Both the position numbers and the translations under genes were made by a program. A stretch of DNA of 64,000 nucleotides, taken from contig NZ_LQPT01000084.1 of the NCBI RefSeq assembly GCF_002102355.1, forward strand, positions 1 to 64,000, given 5' to 3'. The stretch is from Mycobacterium sherrisii. Its GTDB lineage: Bacteria; Actinomycetota; Actinomycetes; Mycobacteriales; Mycobacteriaceae. Numbering within the stretch: the stretch's first letter is position 1; each line of letters starts with the position of its first letter. Below are positions 56,295 to 61,984 of this stretch, one piece after another. The notes under the pieces were generated by a model. That model had not been told where the DNA came from, ran no database searches, and worked only from the letters and a program-made list of their open reading frames with translations.

Positions 56295-56648
56295 ATGCGA
56301 CAGGCGACGTTCAAAATGGTTGCCGCCGGCGACGGTTCGCCGCCGACCGCCGGCGGCTACTGCTACTACCTGGTGGCGCACGCGGTGGCGACGGTGCTGT
56401 TGTTGCTCACGCTGGTCGTCGCCGTGTGGCAGTTCATGGATTGGGTCGTCGCCCCGTCCTGCGCGGAGGCCGGTCCGCAGCCGTCGGCGGCTTCACTGGC
56501 CGCGCAGACCATTAAAGCCACCGAAATCCGCGACGGCGCCGGTCAGCCTGGTGTCTCGTATCGCTCCTGGACTCAACGCCCGGCGTCCTACCGCGACGCC
56601 GCGCGAATGACGGCGATGGCCGGGGCGGTCGGCTGCCCGTGTCCGTGA
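56295..56648 (+). CDS. Small membrane protein, unknown function
   Basis: A 117-residue protein with one clear transmembrane helix (about residues 27-48, LVAHAVATVLLLLTLVVAVW). It continues into a tail with Cys at 56 and two near the C-terminus (GCPCP). AGGGGG eight bases before ATG 56295 supports the start. The tail contains SYRSWTQRPASYRDAARM. I recognise no family. It is divergent from the methyltransferase and convergent with the amidohydrolase operon. Confidence 0.62.
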   Translation: MRQATFKMVAAGDGSPPTAGGYCYYLVAHAVATVLLLLTLVVAVWQFMDWVVAPSCAEAGPQPSAASLAAQTIKATEIRDGAGQPGVSYRSWTQRPASYRDAARMTAMAGAVGCPCP

Positions 56649-56673: not shown

Positions 56674-57942
56674 TCAGTATGCGTCGGGATCCTGTTGCAC
56701 GGCTGCTGGTACGGGATGCTGATACAGGCGCGACGCGTTCTCCCAGGTGAATTTTCGAATCGCGTCCGGCGGCAGATCACCGATCTGTTCGTGAATCGTC
56801 TGTTGGGTGTGCGGCCAGGTCGAGTCGCAGTGCGGGTAGTCGGCTTCCAGCATGATGTTGTCGATGCCGATCCGGTCGCGCTGCACAAACGACGACTTGT
56901 CCTCCACCGCGCAGAACCAGAAGTTCCGGGTGAAAACCTCTGCGGGCGTGAGCTTCTCCTCCAACTCCCGCCACGTCCCGTACATTTCGTGATAGCTGAG
57001 CATGTGGTCGAGACGGTCGAGTAATCCTGCCACCCAACCGATTCCGCCTTCGGACAAGCAGATCTTGAGATCCGGGAATCTGCTAGGCAATCCGGAGTAG
57101 AGCCAGTCGACCGCAGCCGTGATGGCGTAGGCGAAGAACAGCACGCCCGGCACGTCGGGCGGGGCGTCCTCGGTCGTCGACGGCGACGAACCGGACGAAC
57201 CGATATGCAGATTCACCACCGTCGCGGTTTCGGCGCAGGCCGCCATCATCGGGTCCCAATGACCCGAGTGGATCGTCGGCAGCCCCAGCATCGCGGGGTT
57301 CTCGCTGAAGGTCACGGCGTGGAAGCCACGCTCGGCGTTCTGGTAGATCATCTTGGCGCCGAGCTCAGGATCCAGCAGCCACGGCAACTGGCACGGGATG
57401 ATGCGTTCGGGATACGACCCCGCCCACACCTCGAGGTGCCAGTCGTTCCAGGCGCGGACCGCGGCCAGCGCCAGGTCACGATCCGAGGTGACCTGCTGCA
57501 GCCGCTGGCCCGCGAAGCCGGGCAAAAATGACGGGAAGTTCAGCGACGCGTATATGCCGTTGAGGTCCATGTCTTTGACACGCGCATGGATATCCCAAGC
57601 GCCCCTACGCATCTCGTCGAACCGGACCGGTTCGAAGCCGTACTCGGACACCGGTCGCCCGACCACCGCGTTGAACCCGACGTTGGGCAGTTCCCGACCG
57701 TCGTACACCCACGTCTGACCGCCGCTGTCGGTATCGACGACCCGCGGCGCCCGATCGGCGAACTTTCGCGGCAGCCGGCCGGTGAACGCGTCCGGGGGCT
57801 CCACGATGTGGTCGTCCACCGAGATCACCGTGTACCGGCGCGGCGCGCGGGGCGGGTCCGGCAGCAGGGTGACCGACCGCTCGGCACCGGTCTTGGCGGT
57901 GGTGAAGTTGAGATCGGCCGCCAGCTCGTCAATCGATTTCAT
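56674..57942 (-). CDS. Amidohydrolase-2 family protein
   Basis: A 422-residue metal-dependent hydrolase or decarboxylase of the amidohydrolase-2 group (ACMSD-like). Landmarks are VISVDDHIVEPPDAF near residue 40, where the usual HxH is replaced by DDHIVEP, VVNLHIGSSG, ICLSEGGIGW and LEADYPHCDSTWPH holding the late Asp/His ligands. Relatives decarboxylate or hydrate ring-cleavage products. ATG 57942 has AGGAG eight bases upstream. Last gene of an operon with an acyl-CoA ligase and a class II aldolase. Confidence 0.82.
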   Translation of the reverse strand: MKSIDELAADLNFTTAKTGAERSVTLLPDPPRAPRRYTVISVDDHIVEPPDAFTGRLPRKFADRAPRVVDTDSGGQTWVYDGRELPNVGFNAVVGRPVSEYGFEPVRFDEMRRGAWDIHARVKDMDLNGIYASLNFPSFLPGFAGQRLQQVTSDRDLALAAVRAWNDWHLEVWAGSYPERIIPCQLPWLLDPELGAKMIYQNAERGFHAVTFSENPAMLGLPTIHSGHWDPMMAACAETATVVNLHIGSSGSSPSTTEDAPPDVPGVLFFAYAITAAVDWLYSGLPSRFPDLKICLSEGGIGWVAGLLDRLDHMLSYHEMYGTWRELEEKLTPAEVFTRNFWFCAVEDKSSFVQRDRIGIDNIMLEADYPHCDSTWPHTQQTIHEQIGDLPPDAIRKFTWENASRLYQHPVPAAVQQDPDAY

Positions 57943-57992: not shown

Positions 57993-58766
57993 TCAGGTAA
58001 GCACATCGGGATCCGCCTTGATCGTCATTCGCGCCGCGCCGGACCAATACACGGCCGCGGCACGCTCGATCAGGGATTGCTGCATGCCCACCATGTCGGA
58101 CCAGTTCATCTGCACCGGTTCCCGGCCGGTGAGCATGACGTCGTAAGCCAGCTTGCACACCCGTTCGATCGACGCGGCCCGGTACACCGCCTCGGGCAAA
58201 TTCCGGCCGGTGGCGATGACGCCGTGGTTGGCCAGAATGGTCAGATTCGCATCGCCGATCCTGGCCGCGAGATCCGCCGCGCGCGGAGGGCTGTCGACCT
58301 CCCCGTCGTAGGCGTCGACCAGGCACAAGTCGTCGAGGAACAGCGAACCCGTCTGATGCACCAGCTCGGGCAGCCGGCCCAACGCGGCCAGCACACAGAC
58401 CCAGTACGGGTGGTTGTGAATGACCACCCGGGCATCGTCGCGGACCCGGTGTAGCTCCGTATGGATGTGGATCGCCGGGGTGACGTCCCACCGGCCGCGG
58501 ACCACCCGCGCGTCGCTGTCCACCAGGCAGATGTCGGACGCGGTGAGCTCTTGCCACCACAGTCCCCAGGGATTGACCAGCATGTCGGTCTGCCCGTCGA
58601 GCTGCCAGGTGATGTGTCCGGCCATGTTCTCGGCGAACCCGATGCCGGCCAGATGCCGGAACGCCACGGCCAGTGCCTGTTCGTGGGTCAGCTCGACACC
58701 GATCGGCGGCACCACGGACGGCGCCCACACCTGCAGACCACCCCGACGTGGATTAGGCGTGTTCAT
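57993..58766 (-). CDS. Class II aldolase/adducin family protein
   Basis: A 257-residue zinc-dependent aldolase-fold protein. Zinc ligands are visible as HNH in VVIHNHPYW (about residue 117) and His in ILANHGVI (about 176). The N-terminal LTHEQALAVAFRHLAGIGFAENMAGHITW is typical of the family. It would break or form a carbon-carbon bond or decarboxylate a hydroxy-acid. ATG 58766 overlaps the ligase gene's end by 14 bases; 50 bases separate it from the amidohydrolase. Confidence 0.85.
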   Translation of the reverse strand: MNTPNPRRGGLQVWAPSVVPPIGVELTHEQALAVAFRHLAGIGFAENMAGHITWQLDGQTDMLVNPWGLWWQELTASDICLVDSDARVVRGRWDVTPAIHIHTELHRVRDDARVVIHNHPYWVCVLAALGRLPELVHQTGSLFLDDLCLVDAYDGEVDSPPRAADLAARIGDANLTILANHGVIATGRNLPEAVYRAASIERVCKLAYDVMLTGREPVQMNWSDMVGMQQSLIERAAAVYWSGAARMTIKADPDVLT

Positions 58767-60375
58767 GGTCGGCCTCCATCCTTGTTCGAATATCTTGGCG
58801 CAGATCACCTTTGGCGATCTTCCCGCCAGACGACCGGGGTAATTCATCGACCACGATGAGACGCTCCGGCAGCAGTTCCTTGGAGACGCCCAGCGCCAGC
58901 AGGTGGTCGACGAGTTGGGGCAATTCGAGGCTCGCGGCGCCGACGACTTCGGCATACAGGCAAACCCGCTCACCGAACACCGGATCGGGCATCGCCACCG
59001 CGGCGGCCAGCGCAATCGCGGGGTGGGTCAGTGCGGCGTCCTCCACCTGCGCGGCGCTGATGTTCTTGCCGCCGCGCAGGATGAAGTCGGACGTCCGGCC
59101 GGTCACCGTCAGGTAGCCGTCGGCGTCGCGCTCGCAGATGTCGCCCATCAGCATCCACCCGTCGGAGGTGAACAGCTTGTCGTGGTCGGTGCCACCGAGA
59201 TAGCCCAGGCTGGTCGCCGGTCCCCGGCAGGCGGGCTGGCCTCGTCCCGTCGCGGTGACATCGCGGTCGCCGTCGAAGAGCCGCACCGACATCTCGGGAA
59301 CAATCCGGCCGGCGGTGCGCAGTCGACGCTGCAGCGAGTCGTCGACGGTGGTCGCGCTGAGCAGACCGGTCTCATTCGAACCGTAGAATTGCAGGATCGT
59401 CGCGCCGGTGCGTTCTTCGAACTCCGCCGCGGGCCGATACGGTATGGCTTCACCCCCGGTGAACACCACCCGCAACGAACTCAGGTTCAGCTCGCGGAAC
59501 GCCGGATCGGCCATAAGCATGGTCAATTGCGAACTGACGCAACACAATACGGTCACGTTGTGCCGGGCTATCGCCGCACACGCGGCCCGGGCGGTGAAGC
59601 GCTCCAGGATCACCGCAGTGGCGCCGAGGTAGATCGGCGTGGTGTGACTGGTCCAGATCCCGAACCCGAACGGCATGGGGATGACGGGCAAGAACACGTC
59701 GGCTGAGGTCAACAGTCCATTGGCAACGGCCTTCTGGTGAAAGTAATACCAACGGTTCTGGCTGTGCACCACGCACTTCGGCAGACCGGTGGTTCCGGAA
59801 GTGGAGTTGATCAGAAATACGTCGTCGGCGCCGAGTTGAGCGTCTATTCCAACAGGCGGGGCGGCCGCGTCGACATCCAGCCGTAGCAGTCCCGCGGACC
59901 GGTGCAAAACCAGCACCGGCACCGGGCTTTCCGCCGTGATCCGGGCCGCGGCCTCCTGATGCGCTCCATCGCTGATCAGAACCTTCGGCTCGGTGTTACG
60001 CAGTAGCACGCGCGCTTCACGGGTGCCGGCCCGCGCCCCGATGCCCACCACGATGGCACCGCAGCGCTCGATGGCGACGAACAGGACGTGAATGGCCACA
60101 CAGTCGCTATGCCACACCGCGACGCGTGCCCCGCGACCGACGCCGGCGGCGGACAGCTGTCCCGCCAATGAGGTTGCCGCAGCGTCGAATTCGCGCCAAG
60201 TTAGGGAGACGCCCGGCTCGTCGGAATAGGCACGCCGCTCTGGTGACCGTTCGGCGTTGCGGCGCACCGCGCCCGACAGGGTCGAATCGGACCACCAGCC
60301 GGCCGCGCGGAACCGGGCCGCGTCCTCGTCGGCGAATGCCGGCGAGCCCACGGTGTTCAGCCCACCGGCGCTCAT
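58753..60375 (-). CDS. AMP-dependent acyl-CoA synthetase
   Basis: A 540-residue ANL ligase. The phosphate loop is STSGTTGLPKCVVHS (about residues 190-204), then FYGSNETG, DGWMLMGDI and GRTSDFILRGGKNIS, with the C-terminal catalytic Lys in SSGGKIAKGDLR. The wording is closest to cyclohexanecarboxylate- or medium-chain acyl-CoA ligases. ATG 60375 is the start; there is no strong ribosome site. First gene of the operon with aldolase and amidohydrolase, so it activates the acid those enzymes then process. Confidence 0.88.
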   Translation of the reverse strand: MSAGGLNTVGSPAFADEDAARFRAAGWWSDSTLSGAVRRNAERSPERRAYSDEPGVSLTWREFDAAATSLAGQLSAAGVGRGARVAVWHSDCVAIHVLFVAIERCGAIVVGIGARAGTREARVLLRNTEPKVLISDGAHQEAAARITAESPVPVLVLHRSAGLLRLDVDAAAPPVGIDAQLGADDVFLINSTSGTTGLPKCVVHSQNRWYYFHQKAVANGLLTSADVFLPVIPMPFGFGIWTSHTTPIYLGATAVILERFTARAACAAIARHNVTVLCCVSSQLTMLMADPAFRELNLSSLRVVFTGGEAIPYRPAAEFEERTGATILQFYGSNETGLLSATTVDDSLQRRLRTAGRIVPEMSVRLFDGDRDVTATGRGQPACRGPATSLGYLGGTDHDKLFTSDGWMLMGDICERDADGYLTVTGRTSDFILRGGKNISAAQVEDAALTHPAIALAAAVAMPDPVFGERVCLYAEVVGAASLELPQLVDHLLALGVSKELLPERLIVVDELPRSSGGKIAKGDLRQDIRTRMEADHEHA

Positions 60376-60438: not shown

Positions 60439-60747
60439 TTACGGGCTCTGGGGTTTGGCAGCCGGATGTGGCGATGTGGTCGCCGTGATCGGGTGGTGGT
60501 GCTGCATGGGGCGGGGCGGGTTGATGGGCCCACAGTTCAGGCCGATGATGCAGCCGCCACCACCGCCGGCGGGTTCGACCGGCACAGCGGTGCCGCTGGT
60601 ATCCACGGCGGAGGTGGCTTGTGCGGCCACACTGATCGATGGCGCCGTGGCGCCAATCGGCAATTCGCCGGCACCGCTGATCGCCAGGGCGACTACGGCC
60701 GCCCCGCCCGACAGCGCTGCGAGCGTCGCGCCTGTTCTTATATTCAT
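60439..60747 (-). CDS. Small exported Pro-rich protein, CIIGLNCG family (paralogue 1)
   Basis: A 102-residue protein with a signal peptide (hydrophobic core ALSGGAAVVALAISGAG), a Ser/Thr/Ala-rich middle, then the shared block VEPAGGGGGCIIGLNCGPIN (from about residue 57) and a Pro/His-rich tail (PPRPMQHHHP). The two cysteines in C-I-I-G-L-N-C could form a small loop or bind a cofactor. It is one of four tandem paralogues and has its own -10 box (TAAACT) six bases before ATG 60747. I recognise no known family. Located just before the acyl-CoA ligase operon on the same strand, but separately transcribed by appearance. Confidence 0.72.
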   Translation of the reverse strand: MNIRTGATLAALSGGAAVVALAISGAGELPIGATAPSISVAAQATSAVDTSGTAVPVEPAGGGGGCIIGLNCGPINPPRPMQHHHPITATTSPHPAAKPQSP

Positions 60748-60753
60748 GATCCA

Positions 60754-60759
60754 AGTTTA
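60754..60759 (-). promoter_or_regulatory. -10 box of paralogue 1, leaderless
   Basis: TAAACT, then six bases to ATG 60747. Same layout as in the three sister genes, which have seven-base spacers. Confidence 0.45.
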
Positions 60760-60880
60760 CGTATTTGGAACATGGAATGAACTCAGCGGCAACGTGAATC
60801 GGCTGTGGGTCGGCTGTGATGGCGCTTGGTGTTGGACTCACGCGCGCCGGGGCCGCTGCGTGAACTGCCGACCCGATCGG

Positions 60881-61195
60881 CTACGGCGTGTGCGGTGCGG
60901 GTGCGGCGCTCTGCGGGCCGTGTCCAAGGGTCGGCGGACGGCGCGGCGGCGGGGGCTTCGGGGGGTTGATGGGCCCACAGTTCAGGCCGACGATGCAGCC
61001 CGGCCCGCCCCCTGCGGGCTTGACCGGTAGGGCGCCGCCATCGCCCGAGGCCGGGGGCGCCGAGGCCCCACCGGTCGGGACGGCCGGGAAAGCCGTCGCG
61101 GCGCGAGCCTCGGATGGCTCGACACCACCGACACCGGCGGCGACGATGGCGACGCCGCACAACGCGGAGACCGATTTGCTGACGCGATTGCGCAC
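60881..61195 (-). CDS. Small exported Pro-rich protein, CIIGLNCG family (paralogue 2)
   Basis: A 104-residue paralogue: signal peptide from MRNRVSKSVSALCGVAIVAA, an Ala-x-Ala-type cleavage region, then VKPAGGGPGCIVGLNCGPIN and a tail PPKPPPPRRPP. I chose GTG 61195 instead of the in-frame ATG 61204 because TATAAT overlaps that ATG, and GTG 61195 lies exactly seven bases after it. The resulting N-terminus MRNRVSKS matches paralogue 3's MRNRISKS. Secreted or cell-wall located by signal peptide; function unknown. Confidence 0.7.
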   Translation of the reverse strand: MRNRVSKSVSALCGVAIVAAGVGGVEPSEARAATAFPAVPTGGASAPPASGDGGALPVKPAGGGPGCIVGLNCGPINPPKPPPPRRPPTLGHGPQSAAPAPHTP

Positions 61196-61202
61196 CACGC
61201 CC

Positions 61203-61208
61203 ATTATA
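61203..61208 (-). promoter_or_regulatory. -10 box of paralogue 2, leaderless
   Basis: A consensus TATAAT seven bases before GTG 61195. It overlaps an in-frame ATG, which therefore cannot be the start of a transcript from this promoter. Confidence 0.6.
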
Positions 61209-61235
61209 GTCAGACCGCGCCCGGCCCGCCGCCGG

Positions 61236-61568
61236 CTACATCTCGTGCGCCGGAATTGGTTTGTTGGGCACCGGGGCGGCCTCCTGCTGCTGAGGCGCAA
61301 GACGTGGCGGGTTCTTCTTGGCCGGCAGCCGCGGCGGGTTGATCCGCCCGCAATTCAGGCCGATGATGCAGCGGCCCGACCCTACGGGTTCAACCGTCAC
61401 CGCACCCTCACCGCTCCTCGACACCGAGACCACCGTGGACGAAGCCGCGGCAACGCTGATCGGCAATGCAGCGGTAGGGCCGACGACTGCGGCGGCTCCG
61501 GCGGCTAGGGCCAGCACGGCCACGCCACCACCCAATGCTGATGCTGATTTGCTGATGCGGTTTCTCAC
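61236..61568 (-). CDS. Small exported Pro-rich protein, CIIGLNCG family (paralogue 3)
   Basis: A 110-residue paralogue beginning MRNRISKSASALGGGVAVLA, with a hydrophobic core and PTAALPISVAAA near the cleavage site (shared wording with paralogue 1, PSISVAAQ). The conserved block is VEPVGSGRCIIGLNCGRINP and the tail is basic and proline-rich (PRLPAKKNPPRLAPQQQ). GTG 61568 lies seven bases after TACAAT. The spacing, the repeated N-terminus and the shared motif show duplication from a common ancestor. Confidence 0.72.
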   Translation of the reverse strand: MRNRISKSASALGGGVAVLALAAGAAAVVGPTAALPISVAAASSTVVSVSRSGEGAVTVEPVGSGRCIIGLNCGRINPPRLPAKKNPPRLAPQQQEAAPVPNKPIPAHEM

Positions 61569-61575
61569 GAGACCG

Positions 61576-61581
61576 ATTGTA
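61576..61581 (-). promoter_or_regulatory. -10 box of paralogue 3, leaderless
   Basis: TACAAT seven bases before GTG 61568. Confidence 0.55.
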
Positions 61582-61630
61582 CTTAACCGCGGCGGGCGTG
61601 GCCCCGCAGCCGTGGTGGGCTAAAGCGGCC

Positions 61631-61984
61631 CTAGAGCGGGCGTGCCGGCGCCCATCCCTCCGTCGACGGCGCGGCCTGCGGCCTGGGCGCGAGGCGCGGC
61701 GGGTTGGTCGGCGGCGGCGGCCGGGACGGCCTGATCGGCCCACAGTTGAGCCCGATTATGCAGTCGCTGCCGCCCTGGGTGCGCAACGACAAGGGCGCGC
61801 CCATGGGGTCGTTCAGCCAGCCGCAACAATCATCCGGCGACGGGGCCGCGGGCACGATAGGCGCCGCAGGGGCGGTGGCGTAGCTGGGCGAAGTCGTCAT
61901 GCCGCCGGCGGCGCCGAGGCCCAGCACCAGCACCGCCGCACCCCCGCATGCTGCGCCAAGCGACCTGACCGTGCAATCAAGCAC
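61631..61984 (-). CDS. Small exported Pro-rich protein, CIIGLNCG family (paralogue 4)
   Basis: A 117-residue, more diverged paralogue: MLDCTVRSLGAACGGAAVLV with hydrophobic core, a Pro/Ala linker, an extra CC (PDDCCGWLNDP), then RTQGGSDCIIGLNCGPIRPS and a tail PPPPTNPPRLAPRPQ similar to paralogue 3. GTG 61984 is chosen because it lies seven bases after TACAAT and aligns with its sisters; ATG 62053 is in frame but would add an unrelated N-terminus upstream of that promoter. The first gene of the array on this strand. Confidence 0.68.
   Translation of the reverse strand: MLDCTVRSLGAACGGAAVLVLGLGAAGGMTTSPSYATAPAAPIVPAAPSPDDCCGWLNDPMGAPLSLRTQGGSDCIIGLNCGPIRPSRPPPPTNPPRLAPRPQAAPSTEGWAPARPL

Follow-up and report, generated by a model that had tools for sequence, protein, structure and literature searches.

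A short cysteine ring under protein-level selection in small, predicted exported proteins of Mycobacterium, with a four-gene array in M. sherrisii

What holds a handful of residues nearly constant in small proteins whose remaining parts drift is the question raised by an array of four adjacent minus-strand genes of Mycobacterium sherrisii, found within the 64,000-nucleotide stretch of contig NZ_LQPT01000084.1 that was analysed here (referred to below as the window). Each gene encodes a short protein with a hydrophobic N-terminal region and a single cysteine block, CIIGLNCG or CIVGLNCG, in which the cysteines of a putative ring are separated by five residues (C-x5-C). The annotation of small exported proteins in mycobacteria is poor, and while small exported disulfide proteins are already known as a kind, the family with this ring, together with relatives that carry or lack a lipobox-like site, appears to be new. 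Here, we describe selection acting at the protein level on the ring, place the array in a wider group of ring proteins, and tentatively propose that the ring serves as a recognition tip in the mycobacterial envelope.

The arrangement first put forward by a sequence-only reading of the window, namely four consecutive minus-strand genes for proteins of 102-117 residues with a shared C-x5-C block, was confirmed by reading of open reading frames (ORFs) and motifs. Gene 4 (61631-61984, GTG start, 117 amino acids) encodes a signal region, a CC pair, a linker, the ring CIIGLNCG (codons at 61739-61762) and a proline-rich tail; it is of the alpha type, with its extra cysteine pair ahead of the ring, and its start is uncertain because the frame is open far upstream. 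Gene 3 (61236-61568, GTG start, 110 amino acids) carries CIIGLNCG (61347-61370) followed by a proline-rich basic tail, and gene 2 (60881-61204, ATG start, 107 amino acids) carries CIVGLNCG (60974-60997), a proline-rich tail and a GGALPVKPAGGG block resembling the ligase-proximal genes of three other genomes (G132, G110 and G031). Gene 1 (60439-60747, ATG start, 102 amino acids), with CIIGLNCG (60529-60552) and a tail rich in histidine and proline, stops 63 base pairs (bp) before the start of a coenzyme A (CoA) ligase gene. The ring-codon coordinates come from a pattern scan, with match positions lengthened by one base to give whole codons; the motif C[IV]{2}GLNCG occurs once per protein, at residue 75, 67, 70 and 66 of the proteins of 117, 110, 107 and 102 residues, respectively.

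The longest string common to the four proteins is five residues, against three or fewer in 500 shuffles. The DNA is likewise nearly the same at this place, with 28-34 identical bases in pairwise comparison of the 36 nucleotides counted from the first ring cysteine, and the four points named for this likeness beforehand (60521, 60963, 61337 and 61733) are displaced from the ring codons by 6-11 bases towards the tail; amino-acid constraint, codon bias and relatedness account for the near-identity. In addition, the proteins share a best N-terminal hydrophobic 12-mer of mean Kyte-Doolittle score 2.2-2.6 preceded by one to three Lys or Arg residues, a low-complexity linker between this stretch and the ring, a glycine run just ahead of the ring, and tails with 9-13 prolines in 29-36 residues (and four histidines in gene 1). 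The further claim that conservation is confined to the cysteine block is slightly overstated: some columns can also be aligned in the signal region, in the part before the glycine run and in the tail. The arrangement and homology of the genes make tandem duplication likely, though a tree, which splits proteins with four cysteines from the other types, neither groups the window genes nor settles their origin (it is built on few columns, with 40 of 89 inner branches open).

Purifying selection, whose absence, together with a failure to detect peptides, had been named beforehand as a point that would refute the reading of the array as secreted peptides or wall proteins, was found at the protein level and is centred on the cysteine block. 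To describe it, we refer to ring genes that lie before the CoA-ligase gene as leaders, taken as a Cx4-6C motif near the end of a same-strand ORF of at least 35 codons. Across 24 leaders, one per genome, recruited by position and any Cx5C, the ratio of non-synonymous to synonymous variation (pN/pS) is 0.129 in the ring (0.202 with the two cysteines removed), 0.283 in the glycine run, 0.680 upstream and 0.637 in the tail. The invariant columns of this set are C, G, N, C and G of the ring block, V and P before the glycine run, and a proline near the end, and the ring segment without its two cysteines ranks second among 67 segments by low pN, surpassed only by the segment shifted back by one column. 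With Cx4-6C allowed, no spacing other than Cx5C was seen in genomes having a leader. A second set of 25 leaders with four cysteines gives pN/pS of 0.051 for the ring, 0.366 for the glycine run, 0.663 upstream, 0.428 for the tail and 0.254 for the ligase; as this set was recruited by the exact ring, its ring value is biased low, and the 24 position-recruited leaders provide the fairer figures. Ring pS in the four-cysteine set (0.318) is near that of the ligase (0.379).

The codons of the ring vary in a manner that bears this out. In a broader alignment of 92 rows (91 distinct sequences), from which we left out rows with more than 80 residues between the first ring cysteine and the stop, as well as six chance-frame rows (L170, L175, L184, L197, L199 and one CSLGWNCV), the glycine at +7 is encoded by GGG in 38 rows, GGC in 27, GGA in 14 and GGT in 12, and the second cysteine by TGC in 49 and TGT in 43. 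At the protein level, the ring leucine is present in 90/92 rows and the glycine after the ring in all 91 in which that position is present. Two codons are more biased than ligase usage, the first cysteine (TGC in 89/92) and the second isoleucine (ATC in 73/74), a bias inseparable from shared descent. Selection therefore acts on the ring at the level of the protein. An RNA or DNA element, suggested by a minus-strand GGCC...GGCC in the core, was considered and rejected, since third positions vary.

A second line of evidence comes from the cysteines. Over the stretch that starts 32 residues ahead of the ring and runs to the protein end, cysteine number is even in 88 of the 92 rows, with two in 15 and four in 73. 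An extra pair follows the ring in 58 rows and precedes it in 15, and 15 rows have none. Where it precedes the ring, the pair is a vicinal CC in the rows read, as in window gene 4. The four odd-count rows comprise a disrupted M. genavense copy, the degraded L213, and L063 and L074, whose counted stretch includes part of the signal region. The stronger evidence for disulfides is that cysteines were gained two at a time within a single family, and the paired cysteines fit disulfides formed outside the cytoplasm. An exported form, as had been supposed from the window alone, is plausible from the hydrophobic 12-mers, the basic residues before them and the lipobox-like sites of relatives; from these features and the paired cysteines we infer Sec export, a ring disulfide and lipid anchoring of some relatives. 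Exported mycobacterial proteins are oxidised by DsbA-VKOR (PMC12421883), and the ring proteins are like the exported disulfide proteins described there in their signal region and even extracytoplasmic cysteine counts, whereas proteins named there, such as LamA, PstP, LpqW and EmbB, are larger, and here one short ring would sit on a disordered stalk. A further point of comparison is the cinched protein Rv0455c (DUF5078), which is described (PMC9042941) as small, exported and mycobacterial with an essential conserved cysteine pair, its homologue MSMEG_3494 forming a helical bundle with a C49-C140 bond. The ring proteins are likewise small, mycobacterial and predicted to be exported, with a conserved cysteine pair; unlike those of MSMEG_3494, their cysteines are close together, and they have no Pfam match.

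Several observations go beyond the sequence-only reading: a fixed site before a CoA-ligase gene set, a fifth ring gene in M. sherrisii, proteins that end at the ring and relatives resembling lipoproteins. The fifth gene lies on another contig, spans 65 codons with its stop and ends exactly at CIIGLNC; its flanking genes, which we take from their sequence to be isocitrate-lyase-like and flavin-monooxygenase-like, stand in the same order in G132. Such ring-terminal proteins, here termed E-type, are 64-77 residues long, end in C[IV]xGx[ND]C and were defined by profile search and locus reading. The profile search yielded the ends CIIGLNCG, CISGLNCG, CVSGLDC, CISGENC, CIPGANC, CISDLNC, CVAGLDC and CIAGLDC, and by hand count an E-type gene is present in at least 17 of the 148 genus genomes sampled; a pattern for ring-terminal proteins, with 15 matches against 11 in the reversed control, is little proof when taken alone. 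As E-type proteins stop at the ring, the tail is dispensable.

Ten of 16 E-type loci also hold a lipoprotein-like gene, whose product has a lipobox-like site (e.g. LTVGC), a long glycine-rich stalk and a C[IV]GN[ILV]CGG end. This end motif occurs in 33/148 genus genomes with no control match, is ORF-terminal in 24 of the 30 loci fetched, and was absent from all 230 family-sample genomes of other genera (5/251 in all). In M. sherrisii itself, such a gene is found on contig C2 (L085:4862-5215), with a long Gly/Pro-rich stalk ending GGGGGCIGNICGGS. A lipobox-like site is also retained in some ring proteins (L209, L251 and L263), and the ring array belongs to a larger group with the E-type and lipoprotein-like proteins, their signal regions being related in hhalign comparisons. 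The distribution is nested, in that all 17 E-type genomes have leaders and 22 of 25 leader genomes have the lipoprotein motif; co-occurrence p-values, which take no account of shared descent, are given no weight here. Because of this nesting we infer an order of events in which the lipoprotein came first, its duplicates then acquired an altered loop and no longer had the lipid cysteine, the ring gene spread to the ligase operon, and four genes arose in M. sherrisii. Two minor observations concern the lipoprotein-like genes: in L278, from a 3.3 Mb single-contig genome (G075), the end motif lies in a 28-codon ORF without a signal region that looks like a remnant, and in L240, L254 and L283 (G100) much of the glycine-rich stalk reads as X.

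How might such proteins work? We propose, tentatively and at somewhat less than an even chance, a disulfide ring exported by Sec and displayed on a flexible stalk as a recognition tip of the envelope. The four small proteins would be exported by Sec, after which a bond between the two cysteines would form a ring of seven mainly hydrophobic residues, C-I-I-G-L-N-C, with a glycine directly after it. A flexible stalk rich in Gly, Pro, Ala and Ser would hold the ring, with a proline-rich tail added in the window genes, so that the ring would be the constant element and stalk and tail would act as spacers. The ring may then act as the short tip by which a conserved partner, within the mycobacterial envelope or at its surface, is recognised, the tip being shown on a lipid anchor in relatives with a lipobox-like site and released in those without. 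The structural part of this proposal, a ring on a stalk, is likely; that the ring binds a conserved partner is our hypothesis. Retention of the ring while its surroundings drift, with several relatives per genome both with and without a lipobox-like site, suggests one conserved envelope partner, which could be fished with an eight-residue synthetic peptide. A variant that we consider distinctly unlikely would make the tips genus-specific cyclic peptides with the strict code C-[IV]-x-G-x-[ND]-C, both lipid-anchored and released, which mycobacterial cells would use as a peptide signal or contact ligand, either with one another or with some other surface, to be read by a partner.

Several points weigh against the proposed recognition tip. 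The invariance of C, G, N and C in the 92 rows arises by construction, because the recruiting motif fixes these positions, and an even cysteine count is weak evidence on its own, because about 64% of exported proteins have one (PMC12421883). The low-confidence AlphaFold2 model of P0002, one of the four window proteins, has no confident ring fold, although its lack of secondary structure counts in favour of the proposal; it has a mean predicted local distance difference test (pLDDT) score of 60.3 and a predicted template modelling (pTM) score of 0.21, and by block pLDDT is 47-59 over residues 1-80, about 59 at the ring and 78-86 in the proline-rich tail. Comparison of the signal regions of the three groups by hhalign gave 98.2% (alignments A3 and A4), 97.0% (A4 and A5) and 93.5% (A3 and A5), against 1.6% (A4) and 1.3% (A3) for an unrelated mycobacterial exported protein, but these values are pairwise, the profiles are of low complexity, the control is a single protein, and the A3-A4 score was helped by the ring, the feature that had led to the first two A4 rows. 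Finally, ring genes occur in ten neighbourhood groups, and no partner gene encoding 80 residues or more recurs in every one of them; only short-chain dehydrogenases/reductases (SDRs), a CopA-like ATPase and one AMP (adenosine monophosphate) ligase are common to some of them.

The view that no named family accounts for the motif has held. For the four window proteins (P0001-P0004), the best matches were at E 0.054 in Pfam and E 0.096 in NCBIfam, both below cut-off, and at E 0.024 in PHROGs, none of them credible, and P0002 had no solved chain as a relative up to E 10. An E-type protein and its lipoprotein-like companion (scanned without its last six residues) gave no match in Pfam or NCBIfam, and a search of the open-licence literature by ring string or title found no publication on the family.

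Mapping of presence and copy number shows a distribution limited to part of one genus. A profile of the four array proteins found matches in 35/148 genus genomes at E <=0.01, the weakest mostly to the front part, and a degenerate DNA pattern, C-x-[IV]-G-L-N-C, matched in 34/148 against seven reversed-control matches, six of the 34 being only a chance frame. Four ring genes at the ligase site were found only in the M. sherrisii genome, the others read having one or two. A stricter pattern was absent outside GTDB genus Mycobacterium from all 230 family-sample genomes of other genera (6/251 in all) and from all 368 class-sample genomes outside the genus (6/394 in all). A scan of GTDB contigs for CI[IV]GLNCG returned 90 stretches, of which 49 are confirmed relatives, each from a record titled as Mycobacterium, Mycolicibacterium or Mycolicibacter; the remaining 41 are unconfirmed and unread. 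Ring genes were thus found only in GTDB genus Mycobacterium, where they are present in M. triplex, M. scrofulaceum, M. interjectum, M. colombiense and Mycolicibacter kumamotonensis and were not seen in most of the 148 genomes sampled. In M. genavense (L028 and L050), the front-part frames of both ring genes before the ligase are disrupted, and L213 is a degraded ring-gene copy. Phage or plasmid cargo was considered and rejected, tblastn of P0002 being without a match in phage and plasmid collections; a pattern scan of viral contigs returned three stretches, and only in L217 does an open frame contain the motif; this frame lacks a glycine run and was taken as chance.

The array sits at a site that recurs in other genomes of the genus. 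Downstream of gene 1 and on the same strand lie genes for an AMP-binding acyl/aryl-CoA ligase (FadD-like; 58753-60375, PF00501, E 4.2e-65), a class II aldolase/adducin family protein (57993-58766, PF00596, E 3e-37) and an amidohydrolase (Amidohydro_2; 56674-57942, PF04909, E 1.8e-25), all three conserved neighbours, and this set directly follows a ring gene at 42 of the 52 loci whose neighbours were clustered (of the 52, the ring supplied 49 and the profile three). The gap between leader and ligase is 2-86 bp in the 25 four-cysteine loci, which were chosen for lying within 250 bp. The ligase was found in 77/148 genus genomes at E <=1e-120. Upstream stretches for the window, G031, G132 and G143 were taken from longer stretches and 72 others were fetched, one of only 96 bases, with G091 left out as its contig begins inside the ligase. 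A ring leader precedes the ligase in 25 genomes (including G076, where the frames are disrupted), and by the criterion given above neither a leader nor a diverged form was seen in 50 of the 75 ligase genomes with a readable upstream stretch. The operon is therefore probably the older of the two, the ring gene having been added to it within one part of the genus and retained since.

Other ring genes lie elsewhere, at sites whose genes we name from sequence recognition. In Mycolicibacter-type genomes a ring gene stands between what are presumably glnD-like and ffh-like genes, and further sites appear to be a riboflavin gene set, the vicinity of a DoxX/DUF222 pair and that of narG. The ring genes in L210 (G143) and L075 lie beside genes that we take to encode an AMP ligase, an SDR and an alpha/beta hydrolase. 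The AMP ligase of L210 is 65% identical to one in the ligase neighbourhood, a single case that hints at a link to acyl-CoA chemistry. A gene presumed to encode a CopA-like ATPase lies near ring gene L073 and another at the far end of L210, the two products being 70% identical.

With these neighbourhoods in view, other explanations of the ring can be weighed. In one, the proteins would belong to the wall or a matrix, intermolecular disulfides cross-linking copies to one another or to the wall and the ring forming a dimerisation or anchoring patch. Proline-rich tails, glycine runs, four adjacent copies in one genome, a model of low order and the hydrophobic residues between the cysteines would all suit such a role, but local rings fit better with Cx5C as the sole leader spacing when Cx4-6C is allowed and with the paired extra cysteines, and E-type proteins, with only 64-77 residues and the ring as their end, would make poor scaffolds, so that we regard a wall protein as unlikely. 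More doubtful still is a role as secreted peptides that end in a disulfide ring and act as antimicrobials or in the manner of bacteriocins. Frog peptides such as the brevinins are cationic and have a helix before a C-terminal seven-residue ring, the Rana box, and E-type proteins end exactly at C-x5-C after a signal region, a likeness of form and not of homology; the family also has several paralogues per genome. In contrast, in the window genes the ring is followed by a tail, the stretch before it is rich in Gly, Pro, Ala and Ser, and no helix appears in the P0002 model. No candidate for immunity or export recurs, by sequence, in all neighbourhood groups (genes below 80 residues would escape), the ring hardly varies and in the window genes has no charged residue, the variable parts (pN/pS 0.64-0.68) are relaxed and not diversifying, and lipobox-bearing relatives would remain on the producer. 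A role in metal binding or redox chemistry, with ring cysteines and tail histidines binding copper or zinc or with the ring as an envelope thiol switch, seems equally improbable: histidines occur in many tails (four in gene 1, and in four-cysteine rows), most E-type rows have histidine ahead of the ring, and the presumed CopA-like gene lies near ring genes L073 and L210, yet no His column is invariant or near-invariant in A3 or the position-recruited set, that gene is seen in two of ten groups only, and even cysteine counts favour disulfides.

Less probable again is a translated cis-regulatory leader of the ligase operon, an explanation that would hold by analogy with the polycysteine attenuator ORFs of mycobacteria, which contain runs of Cys codons under codon-level constraint. 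Polycysteine leaderless short ORFs were reportedly described in mycobacteria by Canestrari et al. in 2020. The position of the ring gene on the same strand directly before the ligase in 42/52 loci, with a short gap, resembles that of a cysteine-bearing ORF before a co-directional operon; unlike such leaders, the ring genes encode full-length proteins of around 100 residues with a signal region and separated cysteines, their synonymous codons vary while the protein sequence is constrained, they occur in ten neighbourhood groups, and 50 of 75 readable ligase genomes have no leader. We give as little credence to a ribosomally synthesised and post-translationally modified peptide (RiPP), of which the ring would be the enzyme-modified core. 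A constant core of a few residues, placed at the C-terminus or close to it behind a variable front part, would suit it, and bufferins and other modified exported copper peptides are also short, exported and equipped with cysteines, as the ring proteins are predicted to be; however, no gene, hence no modifying enzyme, is found in all ten groups, pairs of groups sharing only the AMP ligase, SDRs and the CopA-like ATPase, a signal region for export is present, and NCBIfam gave no match. Relaxed or decaying genes without present function, finally, are scarcely credible: the disrupted M. genavense frames and the degraded L213 speak for decay, whereas a ring pN/pS of 0.13 with varying synonymous sites in the 24 position-recruited leaders speaks against it.

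Beyond the amidohydrolase gene, the window also holds a small plus-strand ORF (56295-56648, 117 amino acids) that begins MRQATFKMVAAGDGSP; it has a relative at a like place in L086 and belongs to a small cluster of relatives (cluster 19).

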